A stretch of DNA of 64,000 nucleotides from Parasphingopyxis sp. Lineage in GTDB: Bacteria; Pseudomonadota; Alphaproteobacteria; Sphingomonadales; Sphingomonadaceae. The notes beneath the pieces were generated by a model that saw only the letters and a list, made by a program, of their open reading frames with translations, was not told where the DNA came from and did no database searches. Location of the stretch: assembly GCF_028279465.1 (NCBI RefSeq), contig NZ_JANQNS010000018.1, positions 1-64,000 of the forward strand, in the 5' to 3' direction. Made by a program: the position numbers and the translations under genes. Shown here piece after piece: positions 1,715 through 63,468 of this stretch. Positions within the stretch are counted from its first letter, which is position 1. Each line of letters starts with the position of its first letter.

Positions 1715-1833
1715 TGGCGGAGAGAGTGGAATTCGCAATTGCAGATTAAAGCATTGACATAATAAGAATATTCCCACTGCAATCCACCAGATACCACCTT
1801 CAATGCCATGCCAAACTTTTTCCTAGTGATGAG
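1715..1833 (-). repeat. tRNA-Ser 3'-end repeat, copy 1 (attachment-site-like)
   Basis: On the minus strand this starts with an acceptor-arm sequence ending CTCTCCGCCA (G discriminator then CCA), the 3' end expected of a tRNA-Ser. No tRNA body follows. Going right on the plus strand, three blocks match copies at 22243 and 63350: the tRNA end, a CATTGACATA block 37 bases in (1752), and GATACCAC at 1790, then a T-rich stretch and TGATGAG near 1827. The left flank has no similarity to the other copies. The tRNA-like part is the most diverged of the three. A weak hairpin (1647-1653 with 1674-1680) lies just before it and lacks a T-run. Confidence 0.6.
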
Positions 1834-2176
1834 GCCGCTTTCGGCCAATCACAACGTGTCGGCTTCTGGTCGAAAGCGGACGCACTCGGCTGATAACAGA
1901 GGCCCGCGATGCATCTCCAGCGCTTCCTCACCTCCGCACGAGATTCACGATTGTTTTGTAGAGAGTTAGCAGCTCCATCGATTGCTCCGATAACGTTTGC
2001 CGTCGGGACGCGCGCAAGTTTTCGAGGTCGAACAGCAATTAGCGCTGGGCCTGATCGAAAACCATGCTTTCGATCCAGCCGACACAGACGATCCGTTCCC
2101 TTCTCAGTCACCATTTCCACGATCTGGATTCGCTCATAATGTTGCATAGCAAGCTAGGCGCTCTACGAACTAAGAT
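1834..2176. other. Intergenic stretch between repeat copy 1 and cobT
   Basis: No recognisable gene, RNA or riboswitch is seen here. A 115-codon minus-strand frame covers most of it, but it matches nothing I know, runs into the repeat, and its base use does not look coding. The cobT promoter must lie here; I see no clear ribosome binding site for cobT and no second cobalamin riboswitch. Confidence 0.5.
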
Positions 2177-3175
2177 ATGAGATCAAAGCAGCTCCAAGCA
2201 ATTCTGGACGCGAAGACAAAGCCGATCGGCGCGCTCGGACGGCTCGAAAACCTGGCTGTCCATGCTGCCTCCATTCTCGGCCGGACCGGCAAAGTGCCAT
2301 CGGCTTCCCTAACAATCTTCGCAGCGGATCACGGTATTGCCGAAGAGGGTGTTTCGGCCTTCCCCCAAGAAGTCACTGGGCAGATGGTGCTCAATTTCCT
2401 GGCCGGCGGGGCGGCAGCGAATGTGATGGCTGCAGAGCTTGGTGTGCCGGTAACGATTGTCGATTGCGGGGTGGCGCGTCCACCGCCAGCAGCAGATCGT
2501 CTGGTCGACATGCGTCTCGGGCCTGGCACGGCGAACAGCGCGCACAAGCCAGCAATGTCTGTCGAATGTGCGCACAAGGCAGTCCTGCAGGGTCGCGCCT
2601 ATGGTGCGGCAATCGAGAACGGCATCGCCTGCTTCGGCGAGATGGGCATCGCCAACAGTTCAGCTGCGACGCTGCTGGCGCACAAGCTGAGCGCGATACC
2701 CGTTGCCGATCTTGTCGGCCGCGGAACGGGAATCGACAATGAGCGTCTGGCACACAAACAAACAATACTTGAACGCGCCGCGGCACGAACCGGCCTGCTA
2801 ACGCCGATCGAGGCCTTGGCCGAGGTGGGCGGCTTCGAGATAGGAACGATGGCCGGCGCCATGATCGGCGCGGGTGGCGCGAGAAGAATCGTCTTGGTCG
2901 ACGGATTTATCGCAACTGCTGCGGCGGCGCTGGCACGAGCCATAGAACCCACTTGTGCCAGTGCGTTCATTTACGCACACCGTTCAGTAGAACATGGTCA
3001 TGGCGCTCTGCTCGACTGGCTTGGGGCAGAACCGCTACTGGATATGGATATGCGCCTCGGCGAAGGAACCGGAGCATTGCTCGCGGTTCCAATCGTGCGC
3101 GCTGCCTTGTCGCTCTTCGACATGGCGAGTTTCGCCGACGCCGGGGTGTCTACCAGCACCGCGGACGCTTCATGA
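2177..3175 (+). CDS. cobT: Nicotinate-nucleotide--dimethylbenzimidazole phosphoribosyltransferase
   Basis: This enzyme makes alpha-ribazole phosphate from nicotinate mononucleotide and 5,6-dimethylbenzimidazole, the lower ligand of cobalamin. At 332 residues it is close to the usual 340-350. Near the N-terminus is the family's TKPIGALGRLE segment (residues 14-24), then FAADHGIAEEGVSAFP. Near the C-terminus is RLGEGTGALLA, the segment that carries the family's catalytic glutamate. It is the first gene of cobT-cobS-cobC-cobO and its stop overlaps the cobS start by 4 bases. No bluB gene for making the base is present, so the base must come from elsewhere in the genome or from outside the cell. 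Confidence 0.95.
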   Translation: MRSKQLQAILDAKTKPIGALGRLENLAVHAASILGRTGKVPSASLTIFAADHGIAEEGVSAFPQEVTGQMVLNFLAGGAAANVMAAELGVPVTIVDCGVARPPPAADRLVDMRLGPGTANSAHKPAMSVECAHKAVLQGRAYGAAIENGIACFGEMGIANSSAATLLAHKLSAIPVADLVGRGTGIDNERLAHKQTILERAAARTGLLTPIEALAEVGGFEIGTMAGAMIGAGGARRIVLVDGFIATAAAALARAIEPTCASAFIYAHRSVEHGHGALLDWLGAEPLLDMDMRLGEGTGALLAVPIVRAALSLFDMASFADAGVSTSTADAS

Positions 3176-3924
3176 ACAGATCTTTCGCCCGTTTTTGCGC
3201 TGCATGGATATTTCTGACCCGTATCCCTTTGCCGCGTTTGGCGCTTGACGACGCCGATTTCGCTGAGGCGCCGCGCCATTATCCGCTAGTCGGTCTGATT
3301 ATCGGCGCGCTCGCTGCCGCGGCCTATGTCGTCGGGAACTGGCTGGCCGGACAAACCGTCGCCGCCTTTGCCGCGCTGGCGGCAACGCTTCTCGCAACCG
3401 GCGCTTTCCACGAAGATGGGCTTGCCGATCTGTTCGACGGCCTTGGCGCATCGAGCCGCGAGCATATGCTCGAAATAATGCGCGACAGCCGGCTGGGGAC
3501 GTTCGGCACCTCCGCCCTGTTCGTCGTGCTTGGCTTAAAGGTTGCGGCACTGGCTTCCATGCCTTTCTTGCTTGCGATCGCGGTATTGCCGCTCGCCCAT
3601 GGTCTCTCTCGCTTGTCGGCCGTCGTCGCGATTGCCACCAGTCGCTATGTGCGAGAGGAAGGGGCGGCAAAACCTGTCGCGTGGGGCATTTCGCGCGGCG
3701 CGCTAGCGGTGGCAATGGTAACGGGCATCATTGCGTTCGTTGCTTTCGCCTTGGCGATGTCGGGCGGTCTCGCTCTTGTCGCCTTGGCTGGACTGATACT
3801 GGGGCATGTTGCTACGCGCCTATTGTTCGAGAGGAAGCTCGGCGGCTACACCGGCGACTGCCTCGGCGCGGTCCAGCAGCTTTCGGAGCTCGGCATCTAT
3901 CTCGCGATCATCGCGTGGCTCTGA
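3172..3924 (+). CDS. cobS: Adenosylcobinamide-GDP ribazoletransferase (cobalamin synthase)
   Basis: CobS joins alpha-ribazole (phosphate) to adenosylcobinamide-GDP, the last assembly step, in the inner membrane. The product is a 250-residue hydrophobic protein. The start used is ATG 3172, which overlaps the cobT stop, and the protein then reads MNRSFARFCAAWIFLTRIPL, typical of the family; the longer upstream frame has no such sequence. The conserved acidic FHEDGLADLFDGLGA segment is near residue 80. Several membrane segments follow. The 3' end overlaps the following phosphatase by 10 bases, indicating translational coupling. Confidence 0.94.
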   Translation: MNRSFARFCAAWIFLTRIPLPRLALDDADFAEAPRHYPLVGLIIGALAAAAYVVGNWLAGQTVAAFAALAATLLATGAFHEDGLADLFDGLGASSREHMLEIMRDSRLGTFGTSALFVVLGLKVAALASMPFLLAIAVLPLAHGLSRLSAVVAIATSRYVREEGAAKPVAWGISRGALAVAMVTGIIAFVAFALAMSGGLALVALAGLILGHVATRLLFERKLGGYTGDCLGAVQQLSELGIYLAIIAWL

Positions 3925-4448
3925 TCCTGCTCCGTCACAACGCGCCTGAAGTCGAGCCCGGGATCTGCTATGGCCGATCGGACATTGCCGCGCGCAGTGT
4001 CGATGATGCCAGGCTGGCAAAGCTAATTGCCTCGCTGCCCCGTCCTATCAGCGATATCCATACGAGTCCGCTTGCGCGCTGTGCGACCCTCGCCGACCAA
4101 ATCGGCATGGTGCTGGGTCTCGACGTTCGGCGTGAGCCACGCCTTCTCGAACTCGATTTCGGTAAATGGGAAATGCGAGCTTGGGATCAAATTCCACGTC
4201 ATGAGATCGACCTTTGGGCGGCAGACGTCCGAGGAGCTCGGCCGCATGACGGCGAGACGGTTCGGGAGATGACACATCGCGTGCGGGCATATCTCGAAGA
4301 CTATGCTAACGCGAAAGGGAATATTCTCTGCGTTACTCATCTTGGCGTGGTCCGGTGCGCCAATGCAGCTCTCGGGCAAACGAATGCATTTGAGCTAATG
4401 CTGGGCTATGGCGAATTTCTAGCTATCGAACCGAAAGTAGGAAGATGA
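3915..4448 (+). CDS. cobC: Histidine phosphatase family protein, probable alpha-ribazole phosphatase
   Basis: This is a 177-residue histidine (phosphoglycerate mutase-like) phosphatase. The GTG start at 3915 is chosen because the catalytic segment ALILLRHNAPE follows at once; it overlaps the cobS end. The catalytic histidine is kept (RHN in place of the usual RHG), and TSPLARC, the LLELDFGKWE segment and the second histidine in CVTHLGVVR are present. In this operon its job is most likely removal of the 5'-phosphate from alpha-ribazole phosphate or from adenosylcobalamin phosphate. Substrate choice within the family cannot be proved from sequence, but the context is strong. Confidence 0.85.
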   Translation: MALILLRHNAPEVEPGICYGRSDIAARSVDDARLAKLIASLPRPISDIHTSPLARCATLADQIGMVLGLDVRREPRLLELDFGKWEMRAWDQIPRHEIDLWAADVRGARPHDGETVREMTHRVRAYLEDYANAKGNILCVTHLGVVRCANAALGQTNAFELMLGYGEFLAIEPKVGR

Positions 4449-5050
4449 GTAGCTCAACCCCAGACACACACAAGGCCAAAATGCGCAAGCTACAACAGGC
4501 TCAGGCGGAGCGCAGGCGCGAGCTTCGTGATCCCGAGCGCGGACTGGTGCTGGTCCATACCGGGAACGGCAAAGGAAAATCGAGTTCTGCCTTCGGTGTC
4601 ATCGCTCGGGCACTCGGCTGGGGAAAAAAGGTCGCCGTGGTTCAGTTCATCAAGGGCAAGTGGAAAACCGGGGAGAAGCAATTCTTCACCCGTTTCCCCG
4701 ATCTTATCGACTGGCATGTCATGGGTGACGGGTTCACATGGGACACACAAGACCGAAAACGGGACATAGAAGCGGCTGAAAAAGCATTGGGCAAGGCGCA
4801 GGAATTGATTGCCAGCGGTGAATATGCGCTCATCGTGCTCGATGAAGTCCACATAGCGATGCGCTACGATTATCTCGACACATCGGCGGTGATCGACGCC
4901 CTGGAGCAGCGTGGGCCGACACACGTCATCCTGACCGGACGCGATGCGAAACTGGAACTGATCGAATATGCAGATACCGTCACCGAGATGACCGAAAACA
5001 AGCATGCTTTCCATGCCGGAATTCGTGCCCAGCAAGGCATCGACTTCTGA
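4445..5050 (+). CDS. cobO: Cob(I)yrinic acid a,c-diamide adenosyltransferase
   Basis: The protein transfers the adenosyl group of ATP to cobalt in corrinoids (CobO/CobA/BtuR family). It is 201 residues, the usual size. The N-terminal P-loop VHTGNGKGKSSSAFG and the LIVLDEVHIAMRYDYL segment identify it. The start ATG 4445 overlaps the cobC stop by 4 bases and follows an AGGAAG ribosome site. It closes the first cobalamin operon, and the riboswitch of the second operon begins about 45 bases after its stop. Confidence 0.95.
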   Translation: MSSSTPDTHKAKMRKLQQAQAERRRELRDPERGLVLVHTGNGKGKSSSAFGVIARALGWGKKVAVVQFIKGKWKTGEKQFFTRFPDLIDWHVMGDGFTWDTQDRKRDIEAAEKALGKAQELIASGEYALIVLDEVHIAMRYDYLDTSAVIDALEQRGPTHVILTGRDAKLELIEYADTVTEMTENKHAFHAGIRAQQGIDF

Positions 5051-5095
5051 ACCAAGAATATTGACAAGCCAGTCCGCTGAAAGCATGAGCGCTGG

Positions 5096-5283
5096 CAGAC
5101 GGTGCTGCAGGTGCGAACGCGCTTGGAGCTAAGAGGGAAGCCGGTGCGAAACCGGCGCTGTGCCCGCAACTGTGAGCCAGGAGCCTCGAACCAATCATAG
5201 TCACTGGCAAAGGTCCCGTTCGGACCAAGCCGGGAAGACGGTTCGCAGGCGATGATCGGCAAGCCAGGAAACCTGCCGTCGCG
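5096..5283 (+). ncRNA. Cobalamin (AdoCbl) riboswitch
   Basis: The sequence has the order of elements of a cobalamin riboswitch: an opening GGTGC, AAGAGGGAAGCCGGTGCGAA with its pairing ACCGGCGCTGTGCCCGCAAC, a GTCACTGG-like segment, CCGGGAAGACGG, and a B12-box-like GCCAGGAAACCTGCC at 5264-5278. It lies about 175 bases before btuB. The btuB start has no clear ribosome site, which fits control by base-pairing in the leader. It should repress btuB-btuFCD-cobQ-cbiB-cobD when cobalamin is plentiful. No copy is visible before cobT. Confidence 0.93.
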
Positions 5284-5458
5284 TCGTTCGTCCGAGGCCG
5301 GGTCCAGCCAGCGGGACAGGAAACACGCTTTTCCGAAGTAACGACAGCAACAAGGGCCGGTTGCCGGCGCTCGCCGTTTCGTGCGGTGGAGCGGGGCCCG
5401 AACTGTCATGCCTTGCGGAACCCGGGACCTCCGCCAGGCTGCACTTTGGATATATATT

Positions 5459-7393
5459 ATGAAGTCTGTACCTATTCTTCTTGCCGCAGTGTCATTTTCC
5501 GCACTGTCGGCAACTTCCGCCTATGCGCAGTCAGCCGATCTCCGGGCAGATCAGGAAAACCGTTCGGAGATTATCGTGGTCACGGCCAACCGCACGGCGC
5601 GCGCCATTTCGCAGGTCGGCGAGTCCGTAACGGTCGTCGACGAAGAAGAAATCGTCAATCGCCAGCCGAGCGACGCGATCGATATCCTGCGGACGATTCC
5701 GGGGGTCACCTTCAACCGGAATGGCGGGATCGGAACGAATGCCGGTGTTTCGATTCGCGGTGCGGAGAGCGACCAGACCGTGGTCCTGATCGACGGAATA
5801 AAACTCAATGACCCCGCCTCGCCCGGGGGCGGCTTTAATTTCGGACCTTTGCTCACCGGCAACATCGCCCGGGTCGAGGTCGTTCGCGGCTCGCAATCCG
5901 TCCTGTATGGCAGCCAGGCGATCGGCGGCGTGGTCAACCTGATCACCCGTGAGCCGACCGAGGAGCTTGGCGTCTTCGCCCGCGCGGAATATGGCGGGCG
6001 CGATACCGCACAGTTTGTCGGCAACGTGTCGGGGCGCCTTGGGCCCGTCGGAGCCAGCATTGGCACGACCTATCTGCGGACGGACGGCATATCCGCGTTC
6101 AGCGAGGCGCGCGGCGGCACCGAGCGGGACGGTTTCGAAAGCCTGGGCTTCAACGGCACGCTCGACATCGCCATTACCGACAATGTTTCGCTCGACCTGC
6201 GCGGCTTCTATGCCGATAGCGAAACAGATATTGACGGTTTTCCGCCACCTTTATTCGCCTTCGCCGACACGCCAGAGGTTTCTTACCGCGAGGATTTCGT
6301 GGGATATGTCGGGATCAATGCCTCTTTCCTGGACGGTCGCTTTCGTAACCGCCTCGGCTTTGCCTACACAAATATCGACCGGCGCAACGTCGATTTTACC
6401 GGCGGGACGGAAACGGAGACCTTCGATGCCAATGGCGAGAATCGCCGTTTCGAATATCAGGGCGTGTTTGATGCCGCAGAATTCGCCGAGCTTGTTTTCG
6501 GTGCGGAACGCGAAGAGTCGGAATATCGCAGCTCAAGCTTCGGCGCGCCCGCAACTGGCGATGATGTATGGATCAATTCCGTATATAGCCAGCTCAACCT
6601 GACCCCCTTAGACGGCCTCTCTTTGACCGGCGGTATTCGATACGACGATCACGAAACCTATGGTGGGGAGACAACCTTCGCAGCGAGCGGAGCCTATTCG
6701 CCAAACGGTGGCGATACCGTGCTGCGGGCGAGTTTCGGCGAGGGTTTCAAGGCACCCGCATTGTTTCAGCTGTTCAGCGATTTTGGCAACACCGCGCTTC
6801 TGCCAGAAGAGTCCGAAAGCTGGGATGTTGGTGTCACGCACAGCTTTCTCGATGGCCGAGCACAGGTTGGCGTGACCTATTTCGAGCGTGATTCCGAGAA
6901 CTTAATTGCTTTCGTATCCTGTTTCCAGAATCCCCTTCCGCCCTGCCAAGTCGCCAATCCGCCTTTTGGAACGTACGACAACATCGCGCTGGCGAGCGCA
7001 GACGGCTGGGAATTCGGCTTGGCCTTGAGACCGGTGGACGGATTCGACGTTGCGCTCAACTACACGATTATCGACGCTTTTGACGAGACAACCGGCAATC
7101 GGCTTGCGCGGCGCGCCAAGAACACGGTGAGTCTTGTCGCGGACTACAGGATGACGAACGGGCTTGGCTTGGGGATGACGATCCTGATGGTTGGTGACAG
7201 CTTTGACAACGCTTCGAACACTCGTGCACTAGATGGCTATGTTGTTGCCGATGTAAGAGCGAGCTACGGTATCACCGAAAGTATCGAAATCTTTGGACGC
7301 ATAGAGAATCTGTTCGATGCGGAATATGAAACGATCTTTCGTTATGGACAGCCCGGACGCGCTGTGTTCGGGGGTCTGCGGTTCCGGATGTGA
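5459..7393 (+). CDS. btuB: TonB-dependent vitamin B12 outer-membrane receptor
   Basis: This is the outer-membrane gate for cobalamin. It has 644 residues from ATG 5459, where a signal peptide begins (MKSVPILLAAVSFSALSATS, ending AYAQ). An in-frame GTG at 5381 would add 26 residues without signal character and was not used. The TonB box region IIVVTANR, the plug (PGVTFNRNGG, VVLIDGIKLNDP, VEVVRGSQSVLYGSQAIGGV) and a beta-barrel ending in GLRFRM follow. The size fits BtuB (~600). The riboswitch in front and the btuFCD genes behind, with a 4-base GTGA overlap, settle the substrate class. Confidence 0.93.
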   Translation: MKSVPILLAAVSFSALSATSAYAQSADLRADQENRSEIIVVTANRTARAISQVGESVTVVDEEEIVNRQPSDAIDILRTIPGVTFNRNGGIGTNAGVSIRGAESDQTVVLIDGIKLNDPASPGGGFNFGPLLTGNIARVEVVRGSQSVLYGSQAIGGVVNLITREPTEELGVFARAEYGGRDTAQFVGNVSGRLGPVGASIGTTYLRTDGISAFSEARGGTERDGFESLGFNGTLDIAITDNVSLDLRGFYADSETDIDGFPPPLFAFADTPEVSYREDFVGYVGINASFLDGRFRNRLGFAYTNIDRRNVDFTGGTETETFDANGENRRFEYQGVFDAAEFAELVFGAEREESEYRSSSFGAPATGDDVWINSVYSQLNLTPLDGLSLTGGIRYDDHETYGGETTFAASGAYSPNGGDTVLRASFGEGFKAPALFQLFSDFGNTALLPEESESWDVGVTHSFLDGRAQVGVTYFERDSENLIAFVSCFQNPLPPCQVANPPFGTYDNIALASADGWEFGLALRPVDGFDVALNYTIIDAFDETTGNRLARRAKNTVSLVADYRMTNGLGLGMTILMVGDSFDNASNTRALDGYVVADVRASYGITESIEIFGRIENLFDAEYETIFRYGQPGRAVFGGLRFRM

Positions 7394-8220
7394 AACCTTG
7401 GGGCGCAATTGCCGTGGCGCTCGCCGCGCTCCTGCTCCACGCCTGTACTGAGGCGCGGCAGCCCGAGCGCGGCGATGCGCAGCGGATCGTAAGTCTCGAT
7501 TATTGCGCCGACCAATATGTCCTTCGCTTCGCCGATCGCGAGGATATATTGGCCCTTTCTCCAGATGCAGCAAAACGCTTTTCTTATATGCGGGAAGCGG
7601 CGACCGGCCTTCCGACAGTTCGCCCGCGCACCGCAGACGTTCTGGCATTGCAGCCCGATCTCGTCGTGCGATCCTATGGTGGCGGACCGGGCGTGACGGA
7701 TTTCATGGAACGCTCGGGGGTACGGGTAGTTCAGATCGGTTTCCCGCAAACAATCGGTGAAGTAAGGGAAGAGGTGCTTCGCGTCGGCGCGGAGCTTGGA
7801 TCTGCGGACACCGCACAGCGCGTCGCAACCGAGATGGACCGCCGGCTCGCGGCGATTTCGGAGCGGCGCGGCACGCCAGCTGCAACGCTCTATATGACAT
7901 CAGCGGGCGTGACGACGGGCGAAGGCACGTTGGTACATGAGTTATTGCTGGCTGCTGGCGTTACAAATTTCCAGGATCGACCGGGCTGGAATCCGATCCC
8001 TCTCGAGCGGCTCGCCTATGATCGTCCGGCCCTCATCGCACTGGCCTTTTTTGGTGCCACCAATCATGTCGATAGTTGGAGCGCGGCGCAGCATCCTGTC
8101 GCCCAGGCGCAGATTGAACAATTGCCTGTCGTGCCAATCGAAGGGGCATGGACATCGTGCGGCGGCTGGTTCCTCATCGATGCGGTCGAAGCGCTCGCCC
8201 AGTGGGAATCCGCACAGTGA
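7390..8220 (+). CDS. btuF: Cobalamin ABC transporter, periplasmic binding protein
   Basis: The 276-residue protein carries vitamin B12 from BtuB to the BtuCD permease. It starts at GTG 7390, overlapping the btuB stop. The N-terminus is hydrophobic and ends in LLLHAC, so it may be a lipoprotein, though the lipobox is not ideal. RIVSLDYCADQYVLRFAD and the two-lobe pattern of class III binding proteins (PF01497 type) are visible. The order btuB-F-C-D and 4-base overlaps indicate one transcript. Confidence 0.9.
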   Translation: MKPWGAIAVALAALLLHACTEARQPERGDAQRIVSLDYCADQYVLRFADREDILALSPDAAKRFSYMREAATGLPTVRPRTADVLALQPDLVVRSYGGGPGVTDFMERSGVRVVQIGFPQTIGEVREEVLRVGAELGSADTAQRVATEMDRRLAAISERRGTPAATLYMTSAGVTTGEGTLVHELLLAAGVTNFQDRPGWNPIPLERLAYDRPALIALAFFGATNHVDSWSAAQHPVAQAQIEQLPVVPIEGAWTSCGGWFLIDAVEALAQWESAQ

Positions 8221-9197: not shown

Positions 9198-9967
9198 GTC
9201 TGCTCAGAGCCGAAGTCCTCAGCTATGCGGTCGAAGATCGTCACCTCGTAGCGGATGCGAGTTTCGATTTGGAGCGCGGTATGGTGACCGCGCTGATCGG
9301 ACCAAACGGCTCGGGCAAGACAACGCTGCTTCGTCTGGCGCTCGGCCTCCTCGCTGCCGATGACGGCACGGCGCTGATCGACGGTTTGTCGGTAACCGAA
9401 CTGACGCCGGTGGCGCGGGCCCGCCAGATCGCCTACTTGCCGCAAATGCGGCCGCTCGTCTGGCCCCAGCCAGTACGTGATATCGTCGCTCTCGGCCGGT
9501 TCGCTTACGGCGCGGCGCCCGGTCGGCTATCGGCCACCGATTCAGCGGCTGTCAATCAGGCCATCGCGTCCTGCAGCCTTGAGGGTTTTGAGGAACGCGC
9601 GGCTGACACTCTGTCGGGCGGCGAATTGTCGCGGGTGCATCTGGCCCGCGCGCTGGCTGGCGAGACACCGCTGATCGTCGCCGACGAGCCGGTGGCAGCC
9701 CTCGATCCGCGTTTCCAGCATGAAGCCATGCGGATATTCCGCAAAGTCGCCGCCGAAGGACGCGGCGTGTTGACCGTCGTGCACGATCTTGCCCTTGCAG
9801 CGCGATATGCCGATCATGTCTTGTGGATGAAGGAGGGGCGGATTGTCGCCGAGGGCTCACCGCTCGACACCTTCTCCACCGATCGTCTGGACGCAGTATT
9901 CGGCGTTAACGCGGAGGTGCGCAGAGAGGGAAGCGCCGTGCGGCTCGATATCTCCGGTCCCGCATAG
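9194..9967 (+). CDS. btuD: Cobalamin ABC transporter ATP-binding protein
   Basis: The ATPase subunit, 257 residues. It starts at GTG 9194, overlapping btuC. The Walker A is GPNGSGKTT near residue 36, the signature is LSGGELSRVHLARAL, the Walker B is LIVADEPVAALDP and the switch histidine is in VVHDLALAARYADH. This is the FecE/BtuD subfamily. It powers uptake through BtuC. CobQ starts 7 bases after its stop. Confidence 0.92.
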   Translation: MSLLRAEVLSYAVEDRHLVADASFDLERGMVTALIGPNGSGKTTLLRLALGLLAADDGTALIDGLSVTELTPVARARQIAYLPQMRPLVWPQPVRDIVALGRFAYGAAPGRLSATDSAAVNQAIASCSLEGFEERAADTLSGGELSRVHLARALAGETPLIVADEPVAALDPRFQHEAMRIFRKVAAEGRGVLTVVHDLALAARYADHVLWMKEGRIVAEGSPLDTFSTDRLDAVFGVNAEVRREGSAVRLDISGPA

Positions 9968-9974
9968 AAAGGCT

Positions 9975-22034: not shown

Positions 22035-22242
22035 CAACAGTAGGTTCTGATTGCCATTCCGATGATGAGTCAATCGGTAGCACTCGGCAGAACTTGTTGG
22101 CAATATGACCGTTGATTGACCCGCCTATCGAACAGCCCATCAATGGCCGGCGGATCGGAACAAATGCTATTTCTGATGCAGGACCCGCTTGAGCATATGG
22201 CTCGCGTTAGGATTACGCGGTGATACCGAAATGATAAGGGTC

Positions 22243-56400: not shown

Positions 56401-59400
56401 ACCGAACTCAATGCGGGTGATGGCACCGGCTTCTACGCAGCGATGACCGATATCACGGCCACGACCACCGGCGCGAACAGCGATGCCTTGGCGCTGGGCG
56501 GCGGGGTGTCGGACAGCATTGGCGCGCTGTTCCTGACCGCGAACGACCTTGCCGACCCCAGCGTGGTTTCAACCACGGGCGACGGGTCCTCCGCGATCAG
56601 CTTTGACGCGCCCGATGGTTCGACCTTCACCGGTGCGATCAGCCGCAGCGAGATATCAACGGCTGGCGCTGATGCTGCGGCCATCCTGCTCAACACTGGT
56701 AATGCCGGATCGACCAGTCTGGAACTGCTCGACGCGCTTGTGAGTACGACCGGCAACGGCAGCGACGTGGTGCGGCTCAACACCGGCGGGCTCAGCGACT
56801 ACACCTTCATCGTCGCCGATTCCGAGCTAACCAGCGCAGGTGATGAGAGTGTATTGGTGCGGGTTGCTGGACGTGAAGGAACGAACGTTGGCAGTCTCGT
56901 GATGATCGGAGGAACGCTGAGCAGCTCTGGCGATGGTTCGGGCGGGATTGATGTCGAAAGTGACCAATCGACGGGCGGCTCCTCAATGACATTCTTTATC
57001 GGCGAAAGCAGCATCGCGACCGAAGGAGATGAGGCCGATGCCCTTTCGTTCGAACGCACCGCTGGTGACGCAGGCGGAACGGGTGCCACGTTCATCTCCT
57101 ACACTCTCGACGCAACTGAGTTCTCAACGCTGGGTGCGAACAGCGACGCGTTCTTCGCAGGTTCGATCTTGAGCGACAGTGTCAGCACTACCACCATCAC
57201 CAACAGCAGCTTCAACACCGTCGGCGATAACAGCCGTAGTCTCTTTGCAGAGGCGCTGGGCGAAGGCAGCGCGACATCGCTCTCCATAGTCGACAGTGTC
57301 TTCAGAACGGAGGGCGCAAACAGCACAGCTCTTACGTTCAACGATGGCAGCGTGTTCGATGTGATCGACCCAGCGAATTTGTCGATCTCCACATTCGACA
57401 TTGCGACTAGCACGATCAGAACGCTTGGCGGCAACAGCCGCGGCATAGATGTCGCGACATTAGCGGGCGATAACTCGACGACCGTCATCACGATCAGCGA
57501 CAACCAGGTTTCGACGGCAGGCGCGAACAGCGATGCGATCAGCATCGGCACCCAGGCCGCTGTCGGGAGGGTCGGTTCCTCGCAAACGACATCCATTGGC
57601 CAAACGGAGATCATGACCACCGGAGATGATAGCCGCGGGATTTTCTACGGCGCCATTCGTGATGGCTTTGTCGCCGATGACTTCAACATGGACGGTTTGT
57701 CGACTGGTGATGCGCTGATCTTCACTGGAGACAATGTCATCGTGACATCTGGCGCGCGGTCGCACGGGATGGAATATGCGACGGTCACTGGCGATTTCGT
57801 CGACGGTATTGTCGATATCGTTGAGGCCGGAAGCACGATCCAGACGCGCGGCGACAATGCTATCGGCATCCTATTCGGCGGTGTCGAAGGGGTGTTTGTC
57901 GATAGCGCCGCGACTGATGTAAGGCCGATACTCAGTATGTCCTTTGCACCGCTATCGCTTTCGACTGAGGGCGACGGTTCGCACGGCATCCAGATCGGCG
58001 ATGTTCCGGCGTTTGATGTGGCCGACAATACCTCCCTCACGCTCACAATTCTCTCCCGCACGATCACCACCAGCGGCGATGGCGCGCATGGCGTGGTGAT
58101 CGGCAGCGGTTGGGGCGATGCGAATTCGGACACCAACTTTCTTGAGCCGGGTTCAAACCGCTTTGCTTCGATTAGTGTCGAGGGGATTATCGACGTCTCC
58201 GGCGCAGGATCGGACGGGATTGTCTCCTCAAGCCTCATCAACGACTTCCAAATCACCGAGGATGGCAGCGTCACGTCCGCCAATGGCTTTGCGCTCAACT
58301 TCTCCGCGGTGGATGAGGGGCAAACCGTCCTCAACGCAGGCGAAATCGACGGTGATGTGATCTTCGGCGGCGGCGACGATGTGTTCGACAGCTCGGGTAT
58401 CTTCACCGGCAATATCGATATGGGCGGCGGCGCGAATGCGATCTTCGTGCGCGCGGGCGGAGTTTTCAACTCGCTCGACGAGATTCTGCTCGGCGATGGC
58501 AATGCGATCACCATCGAAGGCGATATCGCGCCGGGCGGCGACGGGCCGTTGCAGGTCACTTCGATCGGCAGCGCGCTGGTCTTCGAAGCAGGCTCGCGCT
58601 TCCTCGTCGATATCGACGGCAACCTGGCCGATGGCGCGCTGGCGAATACCGGCGCATCCGACCGGCTGGAGGTGAACGGTAGCGCGAAGCTGAACGGCGG
58701 CACAGTCGTCGTCTCCTCGATGACGCCCGAAGAAGATTTCGGCTCGCGCACCGAGTTCCAGGTCCTTTCGGCGACGGGCGGCGTGACCGGCATGTTCGAC
58801 GGTATCGAGGACGATCTTCCCTTTCTGACACTGAGCCTTGAGCATGGTGCGGACAATGTGCGGCTCGCCGCCGAACGCGCGATGACACCAACACCGCCTC
58901 CGCCGCCGCCAACGGGCGGACCGACACCCCCGCCCCCTGCCCCGGTCGCCTTTGCCAGCGTCGCGCAAACGCCGAACCAGGCATCGGTCGCCGGCGCGTT
59001 CGACCGGCTGGAAGCGGGTGCGACAGGCGATCTCGCCGCTGTCATCGACCAGCTGATCTTCTCGAACACGAGCCAGGCGCTGACCGCGTTCGATACGGCC
59101 TCAGGCGAGATTTACGCCGCGCTGCTCAGCCAGGCGGCGAGCGACGGGCTGACGCGGTCGCAGCGGCTGGTCGCCCGGGCGCACGAACCCTATGGCGAAG
59201 GCTGGGGCCTGTGGACGAGCATCGTCGGCAGCGACGGTTCGGTCGATGGCGACGGCAATGGCGCGGATGTCGAGCATAATGATTACGGCTTCGATATCGG
59301 CATCGATTATCGTGGCGCGGGCAATCGCTGGGCGGCGGGCGCGGCGCTTGGTTATATCGATGGCGGCGTCGATGTCGACGATCGGCTCAGCGATGCCGAA

Positions 59401-60024
59401 TATGATGGCTGGCATCTCGGCGCCTATGCGCGCTACGGCAGTGGCGGCGCGGGTGTCACCATCGCCGGCGCAATCGACTATGCAGAGACCGATGCGAGCG
59501 TCGATCGCCGTATCCGCGTCAACACGTTCGACCGCCACGCGCGTGCGAGCGTCGATGTCGAGACCTTCGCGATTTCCGGCGAGGCTCGCTACGGTATCCC
59601 GATCGGCAATGGCTGGACAGCGGGACCGATCGCCTCGATCCACCATGCGAGCGCCGATCTCGGCCGGTTCGCAGAAACAGGCGCAGGCGATATCAGCCTG
59701 GTCAGCGCCGATGCTTCGGATGAGATCACGCGCTTCGGCGGCGGCCTCTTCGCCAACTGGCAGGGTGCGCGCGGCGGCGTCGATTTCAGCGCGCAATATG
59801 TCGACGGCCACAGCAATGTCGCGCAGGCGAACATGGCGTTTGCAGGCGGGCCCGGCACGATCTTTTCGGTCCGTAATCCGCGCGTCAACGGCTCGGCCGG
59901 GCTATTCACGGCCGCGGGTCGCTACGAAATCGGCAATGGATGGTCGATCGGCGGCGAGTTGCGTGGCCTGCTCGGCGAAGAACAGAGCATCGCCGGTTCG
60001 GCCACTATCGACTGGCGGTTCTGA
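53494..60024 (+). CDS. Giant autotransporter with repetitive beta-helix passenger
   Basis: A 2176-residue protein after GGGAGGACAAGGC. A signal peptide ends near AASAQQ (residue 36). The passenger (to about residue 1780) is a long run of degenerate ~25-35-residue units. Many contain S-T/S-x-G-D/A-N/D-S-x-A/G, for example LSTLGDNSAAFII, FSTSGDDSGAIIV and ITAAGANSDAIRI, as expected of a beta-helix. A proline-rich linker (PTPPPPPPTGGPTPPPP, about residue 1800) is followed by a beta-barrel from about residue 1895 (GEGWGLWTSIVGSDGS) ending in ATIDWRF with the terminal phenylalanine. It is a surface adhesin or shield. The small gene, sigma factor and kinase follow in the same direction. Confidence 0.93.
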   Translation: MIIGGKLGFRASLNQGAALAAIGAALAIAPGAASAQQTVPGTSGNCPIVAGEAICEGDLEDGVISRPTDPDFDRIVVRNPTTPIAPPGYAGIDILKDNGDLDILIEEGVVINVFDDPGIAGPAQGIVAIAQNGFDLRLESAADITADGNGMAALGIEAVAQGGGRVDLINQNGDIEAVTTGDSAIALQGRGVSVFVSNSGGNLTARSNGIGERDAATAGILAIANGGNFTILNDLGNISVETGVGTFDTDFNGIAGAIVGIAFATNQGSSISNTGNLSAIGPQTHGIVGFVESNDLNSPAQALIVSGNAPDDTSISTDGIGSFGILAQGRGDIVVLSVTNNSAIDMTATGGASTGIFLLNQADAGRLEVINQGTITGTGDTLRGIDASTADASNTGDYIFDITNEGDITLDAPLGFGITAFATRDDAIDATINTSGNIDLSATTDVQSIGIAASFGEADATATGDGDSIVTITNSGRIDMGAGVAIAARADQVNLIDNAGALITTGDQSDIVRLGSAGGPAQIDATFVQTILGAEGNESKGIVIEPLTDNSNLRLVLDTVVLTTAGTESNGVLVEQLDSRSAAELVINNSIIFAGGPNAKAVNIDAIGEGSAFTFNISNSTISTGGGPNSDAVQIGGIEGQTSTINVNLLDNSLSTLGDNSAAFIIESFIQNDSVGVLTIGRSDFSTSGDDSGAIIVGSAASGPIDPSVQTITINDSTVTTDGDRSVGISVDSQMDGVTDSLFSILLTGTEAATLGTDSHAIEILGLRNRDPGAVRDATEITIGASENITAAGANSDAIRIVNAGRTAILVNNGATISGGTGDAVAIRLLEASNNDGLLDAVEAETTVLKARLSDRAMNLITTYINSVGVQTPSAVGGGASGADPITVDPFDFTPFNQLMEVDGATVESMMGAGAIVSASPLALGTSNGAIIRTGGDDAAVISASEAIALVASDTTFSSVGDSAPLFRLTELNAGDGTGFYAAMTDITATTTGANSDALALGGGVSDSIGALFLTANDLADPSVVSTTGDGSSAISFDAPDGSTFTGAISRSEISTAGADAAAILLNTGNAGSTSLELLDALVSTTGNGSDVVRLNTGGLSDYTFIVADSELTSAGDESVLVRVAGREGTNVGSLVMIGGTLSSSGDGSGGIDVESDQSTGGSSMTFFIGESSIATEGDEADALSFERTAGDAGGTGATFISYTLDATEFSTLGANSDAFFAGSILSDSVSTTTITNSSFNTVGDNSRSLFAEALGEGSATSLSIVDSVFRTEGANSTALTFNDGSVFDVIDPANLSISTFDIATSTIRTLGGNSRGIDVATLAGDNSTTVITISDNQVSTAGANSDAISIGTQAAVGRVGSSQTTSIGQTEIMTTGDDSRGIFYGAIRDGFVADDFNMDGLSTGDALIFTGDNVIVTSGARSHGMEYATVTGDFVDGIVDIVEAGSTIQTRGDNAIGILFGGVEGVFVDSAATDVRPILSMSFAPLSLSTEGDGSHGIQIGDVPAFDVADNTSLTLTILSRTITTSGDGAHGVVIGSGWGDANSDTNFLEPGSNRFASISVEGIIDVSGAGSDGIVSSSLINDFQITEDGSVTSANGFALNFSAVDEGQTVLNAGEIDGDVIFGGGDDVFDSSGIFTGNIDMGGGANAIFVRAGGVFNSLDEILLGDGNAITIEGDIAPGGDGPLQVTSIGSALVFEAGSRFLVDIDGNLADGALANTGASDRLEVNGSAKLNGGTVVVSSMTPEEDFGSRTEFQVLSATGGVTGMFDGIEDDLPFLTLSLEHGADNVRLAAERAMTPTPPPPPPTGGPTPPPPAPVAFASVAQTPNQASVAGAFDRLEAGATGDLAAVIDQLIFSNTSQALTAFDTASGEIYAALLSQAASDGLTRSQRLVARAHEPYGEGWGLWTSIVGSDGSVDGDGNGADVEHNDYGFDIGIDYRGAGNRWAAGAALGYIDGGVDVDDRLSDAEYDGWHLGAYARYGSGGAGVTIAGAIDYAETDASVDRRIRVNTFDRHARASVDVETFAISGEARYGIPIGNGWTAGPIASIHHASADLGRFAETGAGDISLVSADASDEITRFGGGLFANWQGARGGVDFSAQYVDGHSNVAQANMAFAGGPGTIFSVRNPRVNGSAGLFTAAGRYEIGNGWSIGGELRGLLGEEQSIAGSATIDWRF
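55100..58300 (+). repeat. Degenerate intragenic repeats of the autotransporter passenger
   Basis: The coding units repeat at roughly 75-105 bases with recurring GGCGATAACAGC, GGCGATGACAGC and GGCGCGAACAGCGATGC-like blocks. They are in frame and diverged, so they arose from old internal duplications. The base use of this middle part appears less GC-rich than that of the signal and barrel ends of the same gene, an impression that needs a count. Confidence 0.7.
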
Positions 60025-60051
60025 TTGATCGGGCACGAGCGGAGAACGGGC

Positions 60052-60225
60052 ATGGCCGCACCCAATCCAACGATCGAACGAGAGGTTCTCAAGCTGCTCG
60101 AGGAGGCGCTCGAACAACCCGAGGATAAGCGCAAGACATGGCTGGCGCTGAAGTTGAAGGAGCGGGAGCTGGTCGGGCAGCGGGTCGAGGACCTGGTGGC
60201 CTTTGCCAAGCGCAGAGGGTTGTAG
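60052..60225 (+). CDS. Small 57-residue protein resembling the N-terminus of the nearby kinase
   Basis: ATG 60052 follows GGAGAACGGGC. The product is charged and helical (NPTIEREVLKLLEEALEQPE). It matches the first residues of the kinase at 60839 (DPEIEREAMAAVEEALDRPS) in pattern: P-x-IERE-x5-EEAL-x2-P, then a WL/YL and a leucine-rich end. It has no signal or membrane segment. It may be a free copy of the kinase's N-terminal helical module and act in the sigma-kinase interaction. The function is inference; the gene lies 27 bases after the autotransporter. Confidence 0.7.
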   Translation: MAAPNPTIEREVLKLLEEALEQPEDKRKTWLALKLKERELVGQRVEDLVAFAKRRGL

Positions 60226-60250
60226 GGCGCGCTAAATCCCTTGGAATCTC

Positions 60251-60271
60251 GAAAAATCTCTGATTATTCTT
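60251..60271 (+). promoter_or_regulatory. Candidate ECF-type promoter element before the sigma factor gene
   Basis: GAAAAATCTCTGATTATTCTT resembles the stretch at 53407 before the autotransporter. It lies 49 bases before the sigma gene start, in the only non-coding gap of the unit. If the sigma factor drives both, these would be its -35 regions. Tentative. Confidence 0.3.
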
Positions 60272-60299
60272 GTAAAGGTCGCGATTCAGGGGGGTGTTC

Positions 60300-60836
60300 A
60301 TGGATCACAGCGCGCTCATGGCCGACTGGCAGTCCGGCGATACCGATGCCGGCGACTCCGTCATTCGCGATATCCATCGCGAACTGGAAGCCATTGCCGC
60401 GGCCAAGCTGGCGCAGGAAGCCCGCTCGTCGCTGTCCACGGGCGACCTAATAAACGAAGCGGTGATCCGCCTTTCCCGTCTCGACCGGATGGAATTCAAA
60501 AGCCGCGCGCATATCCTCGCTCTGGCGTCGCGGATCATGCGGCAGATCCTTGTCGACCAGGCCCGCCGCCGCGATGCCGACAAGCGCTATCACACCAAGG
60601 TGACGCTGCAGACCAATATCGGCGAATGGCAGTTGCCGGTCGAACTGCTGGCGCTCGATATGCATTTGGAGGAGCTGCGGGCCATCGATCCGCAACGCGC
60701 CAATATCGTGGAGATGCGCTTTTTCGGCGGCATGTCGATGACGGACATTTCAACCGTGCTCGATATCTCTGTGGCGACGGTAAGGCGGCGATGGCAGGTT
60801 TCGCGCATCTGGCTCCATGACAGGCTCAGTCACTGA
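60300..60836 (+). CDS. ECF sigma factor, TIGR02999/ECF43-like
   Basis: A 178-residue sigma factor. ATG 60300 follows AGGGGGG; GTG 60294 is an alternative. Region 2 contains LINEAVIRLSRLDRMEFKSR and the basic IMRQILVDQARRRDADKRYH typical of the TIGR02999 group. Region 4 has the helix-turn-helix FGGMSMTDISTVLDISVATV. There is no anti-sigma factor; instead a membrane serine/threonine kinase starts 2 bases after its stop. In the studied Vibrio EcfP-PpkA2 pair of this kind, phosphorylation of the sigma factor by the kinase switches it on. The same is likely here. Confidence 0.88.
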   Translation: MDHSALMADWQSGDTDAGDSVIRDIHRELEAIAAAKLAQEARSSLSTGDLINEAVIRLSRLDRMEFKSRAHILALASRIMRQILVDQARRRDADKRYHTKVTLQTNIGEWQLPVELLALDMHLEELRAIDPQRANIVEMRFFGGMSMTDISTVLDISVATVRRRWQVSRIWLHDRLSH

Positions 60837-60838
60837 CG

Positions 60839-63181
60839 ATGGATCGCCGCGATCCGGAAATCGAGCGGGAGGCGATGGCCGCTGTCGAAGAGGCGCTGGA
60901 TCGGCCATCGAATGAACGCGGCGATTATCTGCAATCCCATGGAAGTATAAGCAAACGCGCCCGCTCGCGCGCCATCGAACTGCTCGCGAAGAAACCGGTG
61001 GCAACAGGCAGGCTGATGACGGGCGGCGCGGCTTTGCTCGACGATGAAGACGAAGACCCCGAAGATATCGGGTCATACCGAGTGCTGCGCCTTATCGGTC
61101 GCGGCGGGATGGGTAATGTCTATCTAGCCGAAAGGGCGACGGACGATTTCGATTTCGTCGTCGCAATCAAGCTGATCAAACAGCGGCTCACAACGCGAGA
61201 AATGGTCGAGCGCTTTCGACGCGAGCGGCAAATTCTGGCTGATCTGAATCATCCCAATATCGCCCGGCTTTTCGATGGAGGCGAAACCGAAGACGGCGCG
61301 CCCTATTTCGTGATGGAATATATCGATGGCGAGCCTGTAGACCAGTGGCTCGAAGGGACTGACAGGCCGATCGAAAGCCGGATCGCTGTCTTCGAGCAGA
61401 TTTGCGACGCCGTAGAAGCGGCCCATCAGCGCCTCGTCATTCATCGGGATCTGACACCGCCCAATGTGCTGATCACGGATGCCGGAATCGTGAAGCTGAT
61501 CGATTTCGGCATCGCGCGCCCAGATGATGGAGATGCGGCGCAAGATGGCGCCAATTCGGCTTATACGCCTGGCTTTGCTGCGCCCGAACAGCGCGATGGC
61601 GGCGAGGCAACGACGCTTTCGGATATCTATGCACTTGGAAAGCTTCTTGAATTGCTCGCCGGTGCCGATGCACCGCGCGAGCTGATAGCGATCGCGAACA
61701 AAGCTGCATCCGAGAATACCGATAGGCGCTACCCGTCAGTTTCCGCTCTCACCGAAGATATTGAAAACCATCGAACATCGAGACCTGTTTCCGCCATGCA
61801 TGGCGGGCCAGCCTATCTGTTCGGCAAATTCGTGCGGCGGCAGCGCCTGGTTGCAATTGCAACTTTAGTGGTGGCGCTGGCTGTTTTGACAGCGCTCATC
61901 CTTGTTAGTCTGGCTTATCGGCAGACCGAGCTGGCCAGGGCGGAAGCCGAAGCGAACCTTGCCGATACCCGCGAACTGGCGAGCGCGATGATGTTCGACG
62001 TGTTCGACGAAGTCAGCAATCGACCAGGGAATTCAGAGGCGCGCTTGATGCTCGCCAGAAATGCGCAGCGCCATCTCGAGGCGTTGGCAAGCGATCCGGA
62101 CGCGTCTTATGAAGCGCGGCTTGCGGCAGGGCGAGGCTTTTACCGTCTTGCCACCGCGACAGGTACTTTGGGTGCAGCCAATGCCGGCGATCTGTCAGGC
62201 GGCATAGCGCTGTACGAACGGTCCGCATCAATACTCGAGGATCTTTATGAAGAAAGGCAGAGCGACGCTGTTCGCCTCGCCCTTGCGCGCAGCCATATCG
62301 GACTCGCGCGCGACAAGTTGCTTACTTTTATCGATACGCAGGCAGCCCCGGCGCACGCCGAACGGGCTCGCGCACTGTTGCTGGAGATTGCCTCACCGTC
62401 TGCGGAGGTGATCGCCGAGTATACACGCGCAGAGCGATACCTTGCCAATGCACTGGCCTGTTGCAACGACGATGTAGTAGGCGGCAATCGCGCGATCCAG
62501 CATGCTATCTCGCGTATCGAGAACGCGCCCGCCGACGTTCGTGCCGACATAGATGTTCGGCGCGCCTATAATGATCTTGTGAATATGTCGGCTGGTTTCC
62601 GGATCGTCATGGGCAGCTATGCGGATGGTGTCGCGCCGTTCCGAAGGGCGTTGGCTGCTCAGCGGCGACTCGCCACCGAGACGGGACTGCCCGTCGATCA
62701 CCGGCTGGAGGCGACCATAGCAACCAATCTGGCGCGAACATTGCTGCAGCTGGATCGCAGCGAGGAAGCTGGTCGTATCATCGAACCGACCTATCAGCGC
62801 GCACTGCGTTCGTATCGAGCCGATCCCGAAGACAATGACCTGCAACGCCGGCTGGCGATAACAAGTATAGCGCGCGGCTGGGTTACAGCGGAGAACGGCG
62901 AACGCGAGGCGGCAACGCGCGACATCGAGCAGGGCCTCAGACTGGCACGGCTGAGCGAGAGGTCAGGCGGCCCGGGCACAGGGCCAACGCTCAACTATGC
63001 ACACCGGCTACAGGAGGCTTCGGAAGCCTATTGGGCTAACGGCCAAATGGCGCAGGCCTGCAACACAATGCGTCGCGCAGCATCTCTCTATCGCGGCTAT
63101 GCCGAGCACAACGACCTGCCGATGACATCGCTCCGATATCGCATTGCGCCGATGGAAGAGCGGCTTGCATCATGCTCGTGA
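60839..63181 (+). CDS. Membrane serine/threonine protein kinase with helical-repeat C-terminal domain
   Basis: A 780-residue kinase. There is an N-terminal helical module (1-60), then a kinase domain of about residues 80-320: glycine loop IGRGGMGNVYLAE, K111 in VVAIKLIKQ, HRD at 202-204, DFG at 222-224 and the TPGFAAPEQ activation end. The catalytic loop reads HRDLTPPN, with threonine 206 where most kinases have lysine. One membrane segment (about 340-362, LVAIATLVVALAVLTALILV) is followed by a TPR-like region outside the cytoplasm to the end. It is the likely activator of the sigma factor encoded 2 bases upstream, sensing through the TPR part. Confidence 0.92.
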   Translation: MDRRDPEIEREAMAAVEEALDRPSNERGDYLQSHGSISKRARSRAIELLAKKPVATGRLMTGGAALLDDEDEDPEDIGSYRVLRLIGRGGMGNVYLAERATDDFDFVVAIKLIKQRLTTREMVERFRRERQILADLNHPNIARLFDGGETEDGAPYFVMEYIDGEPVDQWLEGTDRPIESRIAVFEQICDAVEAAHQRLVIHRDLTPPNVLITDAGIVKLIDFGIARPDDGDAAQDGANSAYTPGFAAPEQRDGGEATTLSDIYALGKLLELLAGADAPRELIAIANKAASENTDRRYPSVSALTEDIENHRTSRPVSAMHGGPAYLFGKFVRRQRLVAIATLVVALAVLTALILVSLAYRQTELARAEAEANLADTRELASAMMFDVFDEVSNRPGNSEARLMLARNAQRHLEALASDPDASYEARLAAGRGFYRLATATGTLGAANAGDLSGGIALYERSASILEDLYEERQSDAVRLALARSHIGLARDKLLTFIDTQAAPAHAERARALLLEIASPSAEVIAEYTRAERYLANALACCNDDVVGGNRAIQHAISRIENAPADVRADIDVRRAYNDLVNMSAGFRIVMGSYADGVAPFRRALAAQRRLATETGLPVDHRLEATIATNLARTLLQLDRSEEAGRIIEPTYQRALRSYRADPEDNDLQRRLAITSIARGWVTAENGEREAATRDIEQGLRLARLSERSGGPGTGPTLNYAHRLQEASEAYWANGQMAQACNTMRRAASLYRGYAEHNDLPMTSLRYRIAPMEERLASCS

Positions 63182-63220
63182 CATTGTTTTTCCGGATAAA
63201 CACAATCTGTAGCTAAATGA

Positions 63221-63244
63221 GCCCGCCTCGGGCGCAAAGCGGGC
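63221..63244 (+). terminator. Possible hairpin terminator after the kinase gene
   Basis: GCCCGC pairs with GCGGGC across a 12-base loop, 40 bases after the kinase stop. No T-run follows, so it would be a weak or Rho-assisted terminator. Confidence 0.35.
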
Positions 63245-63349
63245 ACAATGCCAAAGCTGGCGGACATTCGACTAGCGCGCATCAGTGGCGAGTTGACCGA
63301 TGATCAACCGAAAAATTCCATTAAAGTATTGATTTTATTAAATATTTTT

Positions 63350-63468
63350 GGCGGAGAGGGTGAGATTCGAAATAGAAGAACAAGACATTGACATAAAAAA
63401 TTACTCATGTTTCCATACGTCCAGCACCATGTTTGATACCACGCCGGACCTATTCTTCACGATGAGAC
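63350..63468 (-). repeat. tRNA-Ser 3'-end repeat, copy 3 (attachment-site-like)
   Basis: The minus strand reads TTCGAATCTCACC and then CTCTCCGCCA, so T-loop, T-stem and acceptor 3' strand of a tRNA-Ser are recognisable, but no tRNA body follows. On the plus strand CATTGACATA comes at 63386 (36 bases in), TTTGATACCAC at 63432 and GATGAGAC at 63461. The left flank is an AT-rich run (ATTTTATTAAATATTTT) unrelated to the other left flanks. Confidence 0.65.

Follow-up and report, generated by a model that had tools for sequence, protein, structure and literature searches.

Tandem segments behind tRNA-Ser(CGA) in a Parasphingopyxis genome: a probable array of attachment-site-bounded units lacking an integrase of their own

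A 64,000-nucleotide stretch of a Parasphingopyxis sp. genome (assembly GCF_028279465.1, contig NZ_JANQNS010000018.1, positions 1 to 64,000; hereafter the window) carries three repeats in one orientation, each of which starts at the sequence of a tRNA-Ser 3' end, and the question raised by this locus is how such an arrangement was assembled, given that a recombinase gene was not evident between the repeats. The evidence presented below makes it very probable that the greater part of a tandem array lies in the window, its segments bounded by attachment (att) sites and inserted at the 3' end of tRNA-Ser(CGA) by a tyrosine integrase, likely of the P4 type, which acted in trans or has since been lost. 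In such a scheme a P4-type integrase, together with integration host factor (IHF), would insert each unit at the tRNA 3' end, and each insertion would restore the tRNA and push older units outward, a presumed order of insertion being defined in this way; with the enzyme supplied in trans or subsequently lost, the segments would persist as integrase-less cargo blocks.

Organisation of the array in the source genome

The window begins at base 1 of contig C16 of the 3.3 Mb source genome (G000), and the coordinates of the two are identical. All three repeats were confirmed to lie in one orientation at 1715, 22243 and 63349, each opening with TGGCGGAGAGNGTGNNATTC, the reverse complement of the tRNA-Ser(CGA) 3' end; a preliminary description of the sequence had given 1715, 22243 and 63350, and its account of these repeats stands with the third placed at 63349. 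Searching the entire genome with the TGGCGGAGAGNGTGNNATTC pattern returned four copies, all on the plus strand of C16 (1715, 22243, 63349 and 73340) and none reversed. The fourth copy is the intact tRNA-Ser(CGA) gene itself (C16:73340-73429, minus strand), which lies 9.3 kb past the window and is the intact gene that the preliminary description had suggested should be sought at the end of the series. Its count of two enclosed segments has to be revised, as there are three in tandem, of 20.5, 41.1 and 10.0 kb, the third running past the window to the tRNA. A second motif, RATRCCAYNNNNRATRCCAY, lies 75, 76 and 74 bases into the successive repeats (with two mismatches in the third copy); when up to two mismatches were allowed, it matched the window five times against an expectation of 1.05, and five matches were reached in none of 100 shuffles.

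The junctions and their component features in the window are as follows.

1715-1853, plus strand: junction R1, tRNA-Ser 3' core (1715-1734) and right arm; outer end of segment 1; left arm not found
1790-1809, plus strand: paired arm-type motif GATACCAC-N4-AATGCCAT, at +75
22243-22375, plus strand: junction R2, tRNA-Ser 3' core (22243-22262) and right arm; outer end of segment 2; no clear left arm
22319-22338, plus strand: paired arm-type motif AATGCCAT-N4-GATACCAC, at +76
63219-63348, plus strand: left arm of junction R3, the tRNA-proximal end of segment 2; common to junctions of a second species (G001)
63322-63334, plus strand: perfect match to the IHF consensus YAANNNNTTGATW, 27 bases left of the core
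63349-63486, plus strand: junction R3, tRNA-Ser 3' core (63349-63368) and right arm; outer end of segment 3
63423-63442, plus strand: paired arm-type motif with two mismatches, at +74
63349-64000, no strand: start of segment 3, which continues to C16:73339 and ends at the intact tRNA-Ser(CGA)

The left flanks of the repeats had been described as unrelated. R1 and R2 have no clear left arm, but the description fails at 63349, where a left arm of about 130 bp recurs at junctions of G001. To the right of the tRNA lies a gene named by eye as HspQ-like, and this order of tRNA-Ser(CGA) and HspQ-like gene is retained in eight of the nine other genomes of the genus (the contig of G006 stops there); more widely, tRNA-Ser(CGA) was present in all 60 loci scanned out of 80 HspQ loci (the best 80 of 549).

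A corresponding array in a second species

Within a set of ten genus genomes (completeness 66-100%, three below 90%), the TGGCGGAGAGNGTGNNATTC pattern occurred four times in G000 and five times in G001, while the other eight yielded the intact tRNA-Ser only (two different ones in G007); the standard-ended set was therefore present in two of the ten. A model search of contig C1 of G001 located copies at 3269466, 3288288, 3292845, 3300176, 3310260, 3324603, 3341528 (weak) and 3361918; every copy lies behind the tRNA (at 3180113) and on the opposite strand to it, and the array as a whole spans about 180 kb. One more match, degenerate in sequence, is found near 3181.9 kb, and matches at 398620 and 359524 are located outside the array. 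No predicted gene crossed any of the 13 junctions checked in the two genomes (four in G000 and nine in G001, tRNAs included).

A further unit in G001 occupies a second tRNA-Ser, tRNA-Ser(GGA) (L085:14029-18777, near 1869 kb on C1). The left arm of this 4.6 kb unit abuts the tRNA, and a copy of the core with its right arm follows 4.6 kb from the left arm. Its open reading frames, as judged by eye, comprise a LytS-type kinase, a LytTR regulator and two others, and the unit gave no match to PF00589 or to a P4-type profile. Elsewhere in G001, cargo assigned from 30 scanned proteins, a subset of the total, included RND (resistance-nodulation-division) efflux genes with a cyclase-domain protein, a dehydrogenase E1/Rieske/TonB set, and dioxygenase and CoA-transferase genes. 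The unit with the RND efflux genes and the cyclase-domain protein measures 7.3 kb and lies between two att junctions (L023:3128-9961).

Circularity in testing the specificity of the G000 repeats was avoided by building profiles from G001 copies only and running them on C16:1-101999. A full profile prepared from five G001 copies recovered 1714-1839 (E 1e-21), 22235-22361 (2e-17), 63220-63468 (3e-49) and the tRNA end (1e-5), with nothing further below E 8 in that region; in ten Markov-simulated copies, which together enlarge the search space tenfold, the best E value was 0.3 with this profile and 0.23 overall. A right-arm-only profile from seven G001 copies, with the core excluded, recovered 1748-1839, 22266-22356 and 63380-63468 (1.5e-11, 3.1e-6 and 5.4e-8) and matched nothing in the simulated copies, and for a left-arm profile 63220-63345 (8e-26) was the sole match below E 2. 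As gap columns do not count towards it, pairwise identity of single arms proved a weak statistic (mean of 61% and maximum of 73% in 55 shuffled comparisons), and the profile tests and the column tests given below were used instead.

At the level of the family, a model search in which four candidates per genome were scored gave matches at E 0.001 in 202 of 397 genomes; among the matches listed, most lay near a tRNA 3' end, and the full two-sided element was confined to G000 and G001. A distant search of plasmids gave no match. The inner left-arm motif TTGATTTTATTN{7,10}TGGCGG was found in four of the 397 family genomes (once in G000, four times in G001 and once each in G346 and G093), and a form of the inner left arm ending TGGCGGAG was found in 30 IMG/VR stretches. 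Its occurrence is not confined to the cassettes. Of the resultant 32 loci (the 30 viral ones, L189 of G346 and L190 of G093), 12 gave a match to model R1, namely 11 viral loci and L189, and ARAGORN identified a tRNA-Ser in six of the 30 viral loci. The viral occurrence of the motif supports its interpretation as part of a putative att site and, by the same token, lowers its novelty. In six IMG/VR contigs (L202, L205, L211, L214, L220 and L222) a distance of 7-10 bases separates the sequence TTGATTTTATT from an intact tRNA-Ser 3' end, and this sequence may possibly represent a widespread IHF-type site at tRNA-Ser phage attachment sites.

Anatomy of the putative attachment sites

The right arm is characterised by two RATRCCAY motifs set four bases apart, with a period of 12 bases, at +74 to +76, a feature present in all 11 right arms scanned and exact in nine of them, the scan having omitted the weak 3341528 copy and the 398620 copy. 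At +32 there is a degenerate IHF-like site, which is the best match in the arm (one to three mismatches) in nine of 12 right arms, although an IHF-like match with two or fewer mismatches arises in 6% of random 60-mers. The left arm extends for about 130 bp, and in seven of the eight junctions that have one, YAANNNNTTGATW, the IHF consensus used for these scans, occurs with at most one mismatch at -26 to -28, against none of the seven junctions without a left arm and 0.6% of 3000 random 60-mers, a comparison limited by the fact that the IHF motif is itself among the features that define the left arm.

Averaged over 12 aligned right arms, pairwise identity was highest in the core (0.92), followed by the arm motifs (0.81) and the IHF-like site (0.66), against 0.49 for the 74 other columns. 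None of 20000 random sets of columns reached the mean for the arm plus IHF-like columns, and conservation thus appears concentrated where an integrase complex would bind. Taken together, a 20-base tRNA core, an IHF-consensus site near -27 and paired RATRCCAY motifs near +75 fit the design of a tyrosine-integrase att site, in which the motifs would be the predicted binding sites of Int and IHF.

Both types of end were recognised, by sequence resemblance, in segment 2 and in five G001 units, the left arm of one of the latter containing an insertion; for segments 1 and 3 the outer end alone was recognised. As R3 alone has a clear left arm in G000, segment 2 is the sole complete unit there. The six both-ended units differ in gene content where scanned. 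For most pairs, the similarity of the end blocks reaches about -93 to -139 on the left and about +107 to +168 on the right; past +117 an additional stretch, displaced in position, is common to some units. Most of the longer alignable end pairs are about 67-81% identical; the left ends of two neighbouring G001 units with different cargo are 92% identical over 160 bases.

The search for a responsible integrase

A PF00589 search of the ten genus genomes detected no integrase in either array, and placed matches adjacent to tRNA-Ser(CGA) in G004, G005 and G008. Equivalent searches with a P4-type profile and by tblastn found no integrase piece at the internal junctions of either array and none in G000; in G001, decayed P4-type pieces were detected next to the tRNA and, as a weak match (E 0.03), at the outermost junction. 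Among 40 Pfam-scanned G000 proteins (the products of 39 of the 52 genes predicted left of the tRNA, plus one missed by the gene caller) there was neither a recombinase nor a conjugation gene. The preliminary statement that no recombinase lies within the segments was thereby upheld, and the tyrosine recombinase that it proposed to look for at the tRNA end was not found in G000. Beside tRNA-Ser(CGA) in G001, the decayed P4-type integrase (L017:10297-11641) is followed by two open reading frames which, by eye, are Xre/RES-type-like.

The most likely class of responsible enzyme, as judged from the genes that lie beside the same tRNA in other sphingomonads, would be an integrase with Arm-DNA-bind_3 and Phage_integrase domains, that is, one of the P4 type. 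Such an integrase was present within the fetched flank in ten of the 80 HspQ loci, and was the most widely shared gene in 85 left flanks of tRNA-Ser(CGA) (12 of 85, G003 and G004 being counted twice). The exact arm pair was found in 26 of 227 loci, many of them overlapping, which represented nine junctions (R1, R2 and seven in G001), G118 and four viral contigs (L224-L227) that had been fetched using the arm-pair pattern. In G118, which belongs to another genus, the arm pair lies between a P4-type integrase and a tRNA-Ser. In L225 the start of a P4-type integrase lies 145 bases to the left of a TGGCGGAGAGGGTGG core, which has the arm pair on its right; this integrase shares 55% identity with the tRNA-adjacent integrase of G005 and 57% with that of G004. 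The integrases of G005, G118 and L225 and one from G001 all have PF13356, PF22022 and PF00589 domains. Other islands at tRNA-Ser (G275, G194 and G005) have different repeats, which by eye agree between the two ends of each island.

Two other candidates were considered and rejected. The remaining PF00589 matches in G000 are two genes that appear to be Xer-like, one on C7, which lacks PF13356, and one on C9, in a stretch with no similarity to P4-type integrases; Xer-type recombinases were set aside as presumably unsuited to a core that is a tRNA end. Two near-identical G001 units with a P4-type integrase and an AlpA-like gene (C1:357950-359119, L082:7950-9639; and about C1:1739069-1740220, L087:8760-10220) were dismissed as a cognate source, their flanks being devoid, by eye, of the tRNA-Ser core. 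These mini-units do have GATACCAC-like repeats nearby, with a different core, again by eye.

Alternative explanations

Interpretation of the locus as a tandem array of att-bounded units is supported by the single orientation of the repeats, their specificity across the whole genome, the intact tRNA that closes the array and the same architecture in a second species; the array behind an intact tRNA and its counterpart in G001 likewise favour the preliminary proposal of repeated site-specific insertion into tRNA-Ser as the probable process. Several observations weigh against this interpretation. The outer (left) border of the array was not located, and lies at or beyond the end of C16; no P4-type integrase was found in G000, nor any match to one in the fetched pieces of L224, L226 and L227. 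The left arms carry no arm pair, such that excision could be weak or impossible, and R1, R2 and both tRNA(CGA) junctions have no clear left arm. Neither an excised form nor binding was observed, and gain or loss between strains was likewise not seen, the searched collections having one genome per species.

A more specific issue is how the units came to lack an integrase. It is quite possible that each arrived as an autonomous island with an integrase of its own that was later lost, the array being a graveyard of cis-mobilisable elements (CIMEs) that decayed in place. The decayed integrase pieces in G001, the autonomous P4-type islands at the same tRNA in other species and the non-uniform limits of the end blocks all favour such decay, which also matches the three-step scenario set out in PMC5704250. 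Against it, no integrase remnant was detected at the internal junctions, the two end blocks persist in six units whose gene content differs where scanned, and a pair of neighbouring G001 units with different cargo agree at 92% over 160 bases of their left ends. The shared ends and remnant-free internal junctions would thus argue against separate losses, while a single ancestral loss would be compatible with them.

A somewhat more tentative possibility is that these units constitute a non-autonomous family with standard ends, no integrase and varied cargo (B12 genes, RND efflux, catabolic operons and sensor-regulator pairs), stacked at tRNA-Ser genes and moved in trans by the P4-type integrases of visiting phages or islands. 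A common integrase-less ancestor is suggested by the end blocks kept in six units whose cargo differs and by the two left ends that are 92% identical; the units may have moved without an integrase, as opposed to shedding one once inserted. Against such an ancestor stand the variable limits of the end blocks, one right arm aligning with a neighbour only to +23, and the lack of an arm pair in the left arms. Were the ends functional, a passing P4-type integrase could allow complete metabolic operons that bring no recombinase with them to spread, which would help to explain the growth of integrase-less additive islands; and hidden islands could be mapped by the end motif instead of by integrases.

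It is improbable that the ends were instead spread by homologous recombination or duplication within the array, with cargo exchanged by crossover between repeats and no integrase involved. Direct repeats of about 250 bp could recombine, and the two G001 left ends that are 92% identical would be in keeping with this. Most of the longer alignable pairs, however, show about 67-81% identity, a level that is low for RecA exchange, and such a process accounts neither for the presence of a unit in a second tRNA-Ser nor for the degree to which the arm and IHF-like columns exceed the others in conservation.

Origin as a dispersed repeat of the repetitive extragenic palindromic (REP) or short interspersed element (SINE) type, including a tRNA fragment by chance, is very improbable: although the left arm opens with a hairpin-like GCCCGC/GCGGGC stretch, three short left-arm matches (20-28 bases) lie off known junctions (G004 C127:11494, 28 bases, with the inner left-arm motif and no tRNA core; G009 C12:343729; G001 C1:1190557) and model R1 has matches off the array in G001 and one at C12:65598-65654 in G000, the G000 pattern is confined to tRNA-Ser(CGA) and the region behind it, the left arm occurs once there, at R3, and the longer matches sit at tRNA-Ser junctions. 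The many copies at unrelated places named beforehand as the mark of such a repeat were not seen in either the whole-genome pattern search or the left-arm searches. The match at C12:65598-65654 is a weak one (21.8 bits, model positions 104-164), and is perhaps another tRNA-Ser end.

Relationship to known systems

The array is best placed beside CIME accretion arrays, Dehalococcoides ssrA islands and additive flexible islands. Like the tandem accretions of CIMEs with integrative and conjugative or mobilisable elements described in PMC5704250, it consists of integrase-less, att-bounded blocks stacked at a tRNA 3' end. Sites resembling att are present at both ends of segment 2 and of five G001 units, and no integrase was found inside, decayed pieces being limited to two G001 junctions. 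The CIMEs in that account are decayed elements, whereas six units with different cargo here share one pair of integrase-less ends and, unlike those CIMEs as described there, one further unit occupies a second tRNA-Ser.

The Dehalococcoides ssrA islands, according to the available text of PMC3146451, are arranged in tandem between 20-bp repeats of the ssrA 3' end, 15 of them without an integration module, and resemble the present array in having some conserved sequence around the repeats and metabolic cargo; they differ in deploying serine recombinases and ssrA, by contrast with the sites in tRNA-Ser described here, which look like those of a tyrosine integrase and IHF. Additive flexible islands, in which cassettes are added at a tRNA, have been reported in Methylopumilus (PMC10872708), Actinomarinales (PMC7771536) and Alteromonas (PMC5217437), and the first two accounts describe direct repeats of part of a tRNA, as found here. 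The present locus shares with them direct repeats of the tRNA 3' end that divide variable cargo behind an intact tRNA, variability having been assessed from segments 1 and 2. Arms beyond the repeat and the class of enzyme, which are not described in the available text of those three papers, are proposed here from sequence features.

P4-type islands occupy the same tRNA-Ser(CGA) in G004, G005, G008 and G118, and the tRNA-Ser core with the paired arm motif, the same predicted att design, was found in G118 and L225; these islands carry an integrase beside the tRNA, whereas none was found in the G000 segments. Tycheposons, defined via PMC10872708 as tRNA-bounded cargo with a tyrosine recombinase, differ in the same respect, no recombinase having been found here. 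Non-autonomous units of the type considered above would stand to an integrase roughly as miniature inverted-repeat transposable elements (MITEs) stand to a transposase, except that entire operons are carried, a comparison which, like that with CALIN elements, is based on the available text of PMC11389934.

A literature search found no paper naming both Parasphingopyxis and 'genomic island'. Even so, the preliminary suggestion of an undescribed family went too far, since islands that lack an integrase and lie in tandem between tRNA or ssrA fragments are described in PMC3146451, PMC10872708, PMC5704250 and PMC7771536. The kind of island is known; what is new is a standard-ended, integrase-less set with the att design proposed here.

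Cargo of the segments

The contents of the three segments are as follows.

1715-22242, no strand: segment 1 (20.5 kb), cobalamin late-pathway and uptake cluster, pyrroloquinoline quinone (PQQ)-type dehydrogenase, short-chain dehydrogenase/reductase (by eye), glyoxalase-domain protein, TonB receptors, TetR
5083-5294, plus strand: cobalamin riboswitch (Rfam RF00174, E 3.4e-26), upstream of a segment 1 TonB receptor gene
22243-63348, no strand: segment 2 (41.1 kb), YeiH-type protein, TonB receptor, acyl-CoA ligase, DUF1501/DUF1800 pair, TauD dioxygenase
22243-63348, no strand: segment 2, continued: FtsX-type permease, two-component system, 2176-residue autotransporter, extracytoplasmic function (ECF) sigma factor, Ser/Thr kinase
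to C16:73339, no strand: segment 3 (10.0 kb), S9-type peptidase and LysR (by eye), TonB receptor, D-threonine-aldolase-like protein

Segments 1 and 2 had been described as accessory in nature, and tests for orthologs of their marker genes in the nine other genus genomes bore this out. CobQ of segment 1 was present in one of the ten genus genomes, G000 itself, while for the DUF1800 protein and the Ser/Thr kinase of segment 2 the other genomes gave only matches of 39-43% and 32-45%, none of these markers having a close ortholog.

Segment 1, which ends at 22242 without a clear left arm, includes CobT-, CobS-, CobO-, CobQ-, CobD- and CobU-type genes and a TonB/FecCD-type uptake system in addition to the riboswitch, and a late-pathway plus uptake cluster with its riboswitch (window 2177-13777) is thus present as island cargo. 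A YeiH-like protein is coded near a junction both in G000 (22681-23691; Cons_hypoth698 by Pfam) and in G001 (L082:10476-11522; by eye). At the tRNA-proximal end of segment 2 (53494-63181), the 2176-residue autotransporter is followed by the ECF sigma factor and the Ser/Thr kinase.

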